Source: Microvirga sp. (GTDB lineage Bacteria; Pseudomonadota; Alphaproteobacteria; Rhizobiales; Beijerinckiaceae). Taken from it: a stretch of DNA of 64,000 bases. The notes beneath the pieces were generated by a model. It had not been told where the DNA came from. It searched no databases and saw only the letters and a program-made list of their open reading frames with translations. The DNA lies in contig JAPSLB010000006.1 of assembly GCA_031181145.1 (NCBI GenBank), positions 1-64,000 on the forward strand, given 5' to 3'. Numbering within the stretch: position 1 is the first letter of the stretch; every line of letters starts with the position of its first letter. The translations under genes were made by a program, and so were the position numbers. This document shows, piece after piece, positions 27,660-53,998 of the stretch.

Positions 27660-28034
<375 letters not shown>

Positions 28035-28063
28035 CCCTTTTCCACAGGCTCAAAACTGCGACA

Positions 28064-49348: not shown

Positions 49349-51025
49349 ATGCTGATCCAGCTGGCGATACGCGACATCGTCCTCATCGACAGGCTCGAGC
49401 TTCATTTTCACGAGGGGCTCTCCGTCCTGACGGGTGAAACGGGCGCGGGCAAATCCATTCTGCTCGATGCCTTTGCTCTGGCCCTTGGCGGGCGCGGCGA
49501 TGGAAGCCTCGTCCGCCACGGGGAGTCTCAGGGACAGGTCACGGCCGTCTTCGACTGTCCGATGGATCACCCAGCCCGCCGCATAGCCCACGAGGCGGAT
49601 ATCGACGTGGATGGAGACCTGATTCTGCGCCGCGTCCAGTTGGCGGACGGGCGCACCCGTGCCTTCGTCAACGATCAGCCGGTGAGCGTCCAGGTGCTCA
49701 AGGCCATCGGCGGAACCCTGGTCGAGATCCATGGACAGCACGACGACCGCGCGCTCGTCGATCCCGTCAGCCACCGGGCCATCCTCGATGCCTTCGGCGG
49801 GATGTCCGGCGAGGTTCAGGCCGTCGCGGAGGCCGCCCGCCGCGTGCGGGACGCCCGCGCGGCCCTCCAGGAGCATCGCAGCCGGGTCGAGAAAGCCCGC
49901 AAGGAGGCCGATTTCTTGCGCCATGCGGTGGAGGAGCTGACCGTGCTCAACCCGCAGGCGGGAGAGGAGGAGGCCCTGGCCGGGCGTCGGGTCGTCATGA
50001 TGCAGTCCGAGAAGGTCGCCCAGGATCTCAACGAGGCATTTGAGGCCGTTGCAGGCACCGCATCGCCCATTCCGGAGCTCTCGGCCGCCGTGCGCAAGCT
50101 CGAACGCCGCAGCGCCCAGGCGCCGGCTCTCGTGGAACCCAGCGTCAAGGCTCTCGATGCCGCGCTCGTCGCGATCGACGAAGCCCGCGCCGCTCTGGAG
50201 GAGGCGATCCGCGCCACCGAATACGATCCCCGCGAGCTGGAACAGACCGAGGAGCGCCTCTTCGCGCTCCGTGCCGCCGCCCGCAAATACGACGTGCCCG
50301 CCGACGAACTCGCGGCTTTGCGCCAGCGCTTCGAGGGGGATGTCGCCGCGATCGACGCCGGCGAGGAACATCTGGCCGGGCTGGAGAAGGCTCTCAAGGA
50401 GGCCGATCAGGCCTATCTGGCGGTTGCCCGGACGCTTTCGGAAGGCCGCCGGAAGGCCGCCCAGGCGCTCGACGCTGCCGTTCAGGCCGAGCTTCCGCCC
50501 CTGAAGCTGGAGCGCGCCCGTTTCATCACGGAAATCCAGACCGACGAGAGCAGCCGCGACCCGGCGGGCTTCGAGCGCGTGGAGTTCTGGGCGCAGACCA
50601 ACCCGGGCACGCGTCCGGGCCCGCTCCTGAAGGTGGCATCGGGTGGCGAGCTCTCGCGCTTCATGCTGGCCCTGAAAGTCGTGCTGGCGGACAAGGGCTC
50701 GGCCCCCACTCTCGTCTTCGACGAAATCGACACCGGAGTCGGCGGCGCGGTGGCGGACGCCATTGGACAGCGCCTCGCGCGCCTGGCGAAGCGGGTTCAG
50801 GTCATGGCCGTGACCCATGCCCCCCAGGTCGCCGCCCGTGCCGAGAGCCACTTCCTCATCGCCAAGGAAGGCGTCAACGGCGCCGAGGATCGCGTTGCGA
50901 CCCGGGTGGTGCCTCTGGAGGCGGCTCCCCGCCGGGAAGAGATCGCCCGCATGCTCGCCGGGGCGACGATCACCGAGGAAGCCCGCGCCGCCGCCGCGCG
51001 CCTGCTGGAGGCGGCTGCGCATTAG
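49349..51025 (+). CDS. recN: DNA repair protein RecN
   Basis: MLIQLAIRDIVLIDRLELHFHEGLSVLTGETGAGKSILLDAFALALGGR, VFDEIDTGVGGAVADAIGQRL, MAVTHAPQVAARA. Confidence 0.96.
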   Translation: MLIQLAIRDIVLIDRLELHFHEGLSVLTGETGAGKSILLDAFALALGGRGDGSLVRHGESQGQVTAVFDCPMDHPARRIAHEADIDVDGDLILRRVQLADGRTRAFVNDQPVSVQVLKAIGGTLVEIHGQHDDRALVDPVSHRAILDAFGGMSGEVQAVAEAARRVRDARAALQEHRSRVEKARKEADFLRHAVEELTVLNPQAGEEEALAGRRVVMMQSEKVAQDLNEAFEAVAGTASPIPELSAAVRKLERRSAQAPALVEPSVKALDAALVAIDEARAALEEAIRATEYDPRELEQTEERLFALRAAARKYDVPADELAALRQRFEGDVAAIDAGEEHLAGLEKALKEADQAYLAVARTLSEGRRKAAQALDAAVQAELPPLKLERARFITEIQTDESSRDPAGFERVEFWAQTNPGTRPGPLLKVASGGELSRFMLALKVVLADKGSAPTLVFDEIDTGVGGAVADAIGQRLARLAKRVQVMAVTHAPQVAARAESHFLIAKEGVNGAEDRVATRVVPLEAAPRREEIARMLAGATITEEARAAAARLLEAAAH

Positions 51026-51141
51026 CGCCTCGTCGTGAAGGGGCGGAGTTTCGCAGGCGCGCCCTCACAGGTTCCGAGCGCATCGGCGTTCCGGCCCTCG
51101 CCCCCATTGACCCTCGCCCCTTCTCGCGTGTTATCTCGTCA

Positions 51142-51357
51142 CCGGAGCCGGACGCATCCGGCTTCGGGGCGTGAGAACCCCTCCAACAGCGGCCGGCATC
51201 GGCCGTGACGATGCCTTCCCAGCCTATGGCCGGGGAGGCGATGGCGTATGTCCAGGGCGAAAGCCTAAAGGTCATCGCGGTCGTCTGTTGGCGGCTTCTC
51301 AACTCCCCGACCACCAGGGCTCCTGGTGGTCGCTTACCTTAGGGGAGGTTTTTAGCG
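51142..51357 (+). ncRNA. Candidate structured RNA / riboregulatory leader upstream of the 107-aa protein
   Basis: At least six helices read directly, including long-range tgagaa/ttctca and ccaacag/ctgttgg, GAAA-tetraloop hairpin, 11-bp ccaccagg hairpin, and anti-SD ctcccc / SD ggggag. Confidence 0.5.

Positions 51358-53998
<2,641 letters not shown>

Follow-up and report, generated by a model that had tools for sequence, protein, structure and literature searches.

The gene recN ends at position 51025 of the window, i.e. the complete 64,000-nt stretch of Microvirga sp. DNA that was analysed, and a leader of 332 nt followed by a 107-aa ORF lies between it and ligA. What does this leader do? A first-pass annotation had listed eight complementarities in it (helices a to h) and proposed an undescribed, riboswitch-like RNA. 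The leader is a real, uncatalogued structured RNA, and Rfam holds no family for it. By analogy with the c4 RNA of phage P1, it appears to silence the downstream small membrane-protein gene at the level of translation, through antisense pairing. Positions 51103–51681 probably form a single cassette, consisting of a promoter, a c4-type antisense RNA and the gene (Table 1).

Table 1. Features of the leader and the downstream gene, in window positions
Feature	Position	Strand	Basis
Promoter-like TTGACC (51107–51112), 18-nt spacer, TTATCT (51131–51136)	51107–51136	+	Copy alignment; putative function
5′ hairpin (helix a), at the expected transcript start	51142–51167	+	
a1-like decoy strand, 5′ strand of helix b; partner 51293–51301	51172–51180	+	Covariation, copy-specific pairing
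b1-like decoy strand, 5′ strand of helix c; partner 51285–51291	51183–51189	+	Two-sided changes at 7/7 pairs
Hairpin GCGGYC/GRCCGC with loop GGCATC, a possible further partner of GATGCC as an alternative or a pseudoknot (helix d)	51190–51215	+	
Precursor hairpin CTTCCC..GGGGAGG, competitor of P1	51214–51238	+	
P1 5′ strand GGYCGGGGAG	51228–51237	+	P1 covariation across genera
P2: stem 51238–51244/51272–51278 (helix e), inner GNRA hairpin 51255–51266 (helix f)	51238–51278	+	
P3 hairpin, loop displaying the b′ antisense segment (51285–51291)	51280–51295	+	Pairing and covariation
a′ antisense segment	51296–51302	+	Covariation, copy-specific pairing
P1 3′ strand CUCCCCGACC, doubling as anti-SD	51303–51312	+	
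ACCA after P1	51313–51316	+	Invariant in aligned full-length Microvirga copies; putative role
Hairpin g, CGACCACCAGG-GCT-CCTGGTGGTCG	51308–51332	+	
Shine-Dalgarno (SD) GGGGAG, predicted target of the antisense arm together with the start region	51342–51347	+	
107-aa ORF, uncharacterised family	51358–51681	+	

All of the listed complementarities are present in the sequence. RNAfold assigned the leader a minimum free energy (MFE) of −134.3 kcal/mol, compared with −100.95 ± 5.34 kcal/mol for 200 dinucleotide shuffles (z = −6.25, 0/200). The MFE structure includes helices a, b, c, e, f, g and h, the last of which is the pairing of CUCCCC with the SD GGGGAG, so that the proposed sequestration of the SD has a real structural counterpart. 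Helix d fared less uniformly: RNAfold prefers a GGCC/GGCC pairing in its place, whereas GGCATC/GATGCC, like the alternative GCGGYC/GRCCGC, can pair in most copies.

The structure is also backed by compensatory change. In an alignment of 37 distinct homologous copies, 95.0% of the cells were paired, compared with 84.9% for column shuffles and 32–43% for slid partners, and 24 of the 46 pairs showed two-sided changes (0/500 shuffles). Compensatory changes were found at 5/8 pairs of helix b, at 7/7 pairs of helix c and at 6/7 pairs of helix e, lengthened by the pair 51244–51272. P3 was paired in 94.9% of cases, with two-sided changes at 4/4 pairs. Hairpin g occurs in every Microvirga copy, and its pairs covary in other genera. 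A further helix, P1, which the first-pass annotation had missed, covaries across genera as well. It crosses helices b and c, implying either a pseudoknot or successive states, and its 5′ strand contains a second GGGGAG (51232–51237) that competes with the SD for CUCCCC. A second alignment of 53 model matches, which was fitted to our covariance model R1 (see below) and is thus biased toward the proposed structure, gave 95.8% paired cells, 499 compensatory cells versus 126 in shuffles, and two-sided changes at 37 of 42 pairs. The stem formed with the SD had also been read as a possible intrinsic terminator. This candidate was rejected, as the T-run 3′ of the SD is not kept among the other copies and a terminator scan returned none.

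Homology between copies starts at the promoter-like TTGACC (about 51103) and mostly extends through the ORF; a simple scan for the sigma-70 consensus did not flag these boxes. BLAST found a second copy within the same genome and as many as nine matches in a single genome among relatives; one of these relatives, the source of copy L086, is Microvirga vignae. R1, which was built from the 37 copies, detected homologues in 22 of 48 Microvirga genomes, with 1–8 copies each. It was positive in 41 of the 298 genomes sampled in the order (28 of 123 genera) and in 20 of 299 genomes of a phylum-wide sample. The copies that were examined sit between ordinary chromosomal genes, whose names we read off the sequences. 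The unit is a dispersed cassette and not a feature of the recN–ligA interval, and it is missing between these genes in the two closest relatives. The interval itself (window positions 51034–51735) is not conserved; it comprises about 390 nt of mostly unrelated sequence in these two genomes, and no clean empty site with a target duplication was found there.

Such a distribution raises the question of whether the unit is a mobile repeat of the MITE or REP type, with a structure that serves transposition and an incidental ORF. Its dispersed and patchy occurrence would be compatible with this, as would a copy on a Shinella plasmid beside Tn3, ISL3 and IS110 genes. We consider it highly improbable: a search of the unit edges revealed neither terminal inverted repeats nor target duplications, the −35 box marks the limit of homology, the ORF family is retained along with its ribosome-binding site (RBS), and compensatory changes preserve the pairings across many sequence changes. 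The plasmid search yielded five records, in Shinella and Paracoccus. The Shinella copy (plasmid pShin-06, NZ_CP015742.1) lies within a transposase gene cluster (Tn3, ISL3, IS110 and IS3), and the family is thus carried by plasmid and transposon. Two unit copies occur within 3.5 kb at one locus (L059, contig C260 of genome G003), one of them preceding an N run in the assembly. In one Microvirga genome (G002), at least three copies of the RNA have an insertion sequence at an identical position in the antisense arm, CTTCTCAACT^CTCCCC, as though the RNA gene served as its target. The loci concerned are L016, L032, L064, L077, L078 and L079, at the ends of contigs C12, C13, C15 and C16; the contigs break there, and we read the translated end as the C-terminus of an IS110-like transposase. 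A phage or plasmid origin by direct similarity was likewise rejected: the 107-aa protein had no match in 50,697 phage records, the RNA had none in phage records either, and the plasmid search gave the five records mentioned above.

The suggested linkage to the gene family of the 107-aa protein is borne out by the copies, which are usually followed by a member of this family, recognisable by an N-terminal PYSxWADWLSKFHT motif. Elsewhere, the gene behind the RNA belongs to an unrelated 82-aa family (MVFRRKPKPPL) or encodes an XRE regulator. Overall, the regulated genes share no common pathway and comprise membrane protein families, XRE regulators, RovC-like proteins and unknowns. The 107-aa protein has a predicted long helix (residues 20–49), which is likely to be transmembrane, and a small C-terminal beta part. 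Its AlphaFold model is of low confidence (mean pLDDT 72.1, pTM 0.37), and Foldseek returned no PDB match at E ≤ 0.001. No useful match was obtained in Pfam, NCBIfam, PHROGs or PADLOC.

We compared the pairing of the variable segment X with its own partner and with partners swapped among copies, using 2000 swaps; as the copies are kin, such tests overstate independence. The values for the upstream strand were −22.68 (own) versus −14.42 (swapped; s.d. 0.51, 0/2000) in Microvirga and −23.94 versus −13.32 (0/2000) in other Hyphomicrobiales. In one recombinant copy (L036), the upstream strand and the antisense segment are mismatched. For the antisense arm and the RBS, copy specificity was modest, i.e. 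−18.56 versus −17.82 (16/2000) in Microvirga and −16.70 versus −15.60 (35/2000) in other Hyphomicrobiales. The Microvirga RBS target consists of the SD and early codons, whose pairing partners are a′ and the 3′ strand of P1; examples are GGGAGUUG with CAACUCCC and AUGGAGCCG with CGGCUUC. It contains no full second copy of a1/b1.

These results bear on the riboswitch-like reading. In that case, the near-invariant motif in P2, GYAUGUCCARGG..CYUAAAGG, would bind a metabolite and the exchange between P1 and the SD, which both compete for CUCCCC, would be the expression platform; the strong fold fits as well. However, the regulated genes are unrelated, no Rfam riboswitch matched, and the related sRNA-Xcc1 loci described below have a different motif at this place. 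The most variable segments are nevertheless complementary, which is expected of an antisense RNA and not of an aptamer. The order of segments, the duplicated partner strand, the RBS target, the ACCA and the gene contexts all fit a c4-type antisense RNA. The riboswitch reading was set aside as unsupported, and we regard it as very unlikely.

The c4 RNA of phage P1 is a 77-nt RNA processed by RNase P, with a′ and b′ in loops and b′ acting at an RBS (PMC5320573). By analogy, the Microvirga antisense RNA would work as follows. The transcript core, 51228–51316, would fold into P1, P2 and P3; its antisense arm would comprise b′, displayed in the P3 loop, together with a′ and the 3′ strand of P1. Before processing, b′ and a′ (51285–51302) would be held by the upstream decoy strand (51172–51189) through helices b and c. 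Removal of the leader by a cut at the base of P1, for which RNase P is the likeliest enzyme as in the phage case, would free the arm and place the predicted 5′ end of the processed RNA at the P1 5′ strand. The freed arm would then pair with the SD and start codons of the next gene and block its translation, and the processed RNA might also act in trans. The expected net effect is repression of the small protein; such proteins may be harmful or only conditionally needed, which would be the reason for repressing them. Indirect support for RNase P here consists of the ACCA after P1 and a conserved UAYGGYC at the predicted site. ACCA resembles the 3′ end of RNase P substrates.

A variant of this scheme is a c4-type leader acting only in cis, unprocessed and without a trans RNA, that switches between two folds, ON when bound to the decoy and OFF when bound to the SD, e.g. 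with temperature or RNase action. The antisense arm and its target are on the same transcript and show own-pair specificity, and hairpin g and the CTTCCC/GGGGAGG hairpin provide alternative folds. In contrast, the related sRNA-Xcc1 is a discrete RNA of about 88 nt on Northern blots (PMC2996969), C4 and the c4-like RNAs of Acinetobacter are processed (PMC5320573), and the ACCA after P1 is conserved. An exclusively cis-acting leader thus seems unlikely, and we favour the processed antisense RNA.

To which known RNA is it related? At curated thresholds, the sole Rfam match in the whole window was RNase P RNA, a class A gene at 27660–28037 (RF00010, 322 bits) that would supply the RNA of the proposed processing enzyme. 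When 20 of the R1 loci from the order were scanned with Rfam, none of the cassette RNAs was matched. When a 401-nt segment was scanned with all Rfam families at E ≤ 10, the best match of the leader was sRNA-Xcc1 (RF02221), with 23.2 bits (E = 0.096), below the gathering cut-off of 53 bits. Conversely, R1, whose training set contained no RF02221 locus, hit 14 of the 30 RF02221 loci with E < 0.01 (best 6e-7); these hits had the correct position and orientation and extended over the upstream strand. Judged from these sequence matches, the Microvirga RNA and sRNA-Xcc1 are detectably homologous. For C4 (RF01695), neither the window, searched at E ≤ 10, nor the genome yielded a match; c4-a1b1 (RF03163) gave none in the window. 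R1 found nothing convincing among C4 loci and P1 c4, the best hit (E = 0.036) lying off the C4 site in L217. These searches lend no support to common descent with C4 itself, and membership in Rfam C4 or sRNA-Xcc1 is not claimed because the leader stayed below the model thresholds.

In Rfam, sRNA-Xcc1 is filed outside the C4 clan, and it has been described as a trans-acting virulence sRNA. Its counterpart of 51285–51302 is complementary, copy by copy, both to a strand that lies 60–120 nt upstream and to the region around the RBS of the gene that follows. For 30 loci, the values were −24.28 (own) versus −17.20 (swapped, 0/2000) upstream and −18.88 versus −14.37 (0/2000) at the RBS; the upstream coupling of the Microvirga copies equals this in strength, whereas their RBS complementarity is weaker. 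The identified genes behind sRNA-Xcc1 include genes of the antirepressor type (KilA-N, Bro-N, Rha, P22_AR_N) and SymE, and a survey placed it upstream of symE in Xanthomonas integrons (PMC12444791). Because of these complementarities and contexts, sRNA-Xcc1 also looks c4-type. Loci L087–L116 carry c4-type a1/b1 and a2/b2 targets ahead of antirepressor-type genes and symE. One genome (G233, locus L104) has two copies 1.3 kb apart, and the copy ahead of symE is flanked by the near-direct repeats TTAAACACACCCTATCAG and TTTAAACAACCCTATCAG, i.e. the upstream decoy and the RBS target.

The leader is best classed as an uncatalogued sRNA-Xcc1 relative with a c4-like action, and the best reading of the family is an uncatalogued alphaproteobacterial branch of c4-type RNAs, dispersed in the form of stand-alone cassettes that control genes for small membrane proteins, for XRE regulators and for other products. 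It would add an RNA family with a testable mechanism, link RNAs that Rfam files apart (C4/c4-a1b1 and sRNA-Xcc1), account for the position of sRNA-Xcc1 upstream of symE and antirepressor genes, and offer a source of naturally orthogonal antisense/target pairs. More tentatively, it is possible that a third c4-type branch with an alphaproteobacterial motif left phages and spread as chromosomal cassettes, each self-contained and with an orthogonal antisense/decoy pair of its own that governs small membrane proteins of a new family (similar to type I toxin-antitoxin systems or phage exclusion); sRNA-Xcc1 would belong to the same superfamily and would itself mainly regulate the gene behind it.

With sRNA-Xcc1, the Microvirga RNA shares the layout CCGUCU-X-CGGUUU, with X complementary to the upstream strand as well as to the RBS downstream, the multicopy state, and integron, island and plasmid contexts. 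Unlike it, sRNA-Xcc1 has its own P2 motif, AAUACAAGACCCGNAAGGGRAAU, and its identified downstream genes are phage-type or symE. With C4 of P1/P7 (RF01695 and RF03163, clan CL00128), the Microvirga RNA shares the order of promoter, a1/b1 complementary to a′/b′, and core, in which P1 encloses P2 and P3, the P3 loop holds b′, and a′ is single-stranded ahead of the P1 3′ strand. The tRNA-like ACC(A) end, an RBS target ahead of a small protein gene (icd in P1; predicted in Microvirga) and a precursor hairpin covering the P1 5′ strand (ACGCCC/GGGCGT in the phage, CTTCCC/GGGGAGG in Microvirga) are also common to both; the phage P1 record is annotated in the order promoter, a1, b1, c4, a2, b2, icd, ant. 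In contrast to C4, the Microvirga RNA has a shorter P1 and a larger P2 with another conserved motif, its target is formed with the P1 3′ strand, and its units are stand-alone chromosomal cassettes amid housekeeping genes without an antirepressor. The Group 1 C4-like sRNAs of Acinetobacter baumannii (PMC5320573) likewise have many chromosomal copies with a c4 fold and variable a′/b′, but they match the Rfam C4 motif and were reported as sRNAs, whereas the Microvirga copies stand just ahead of a conserved ORF family.
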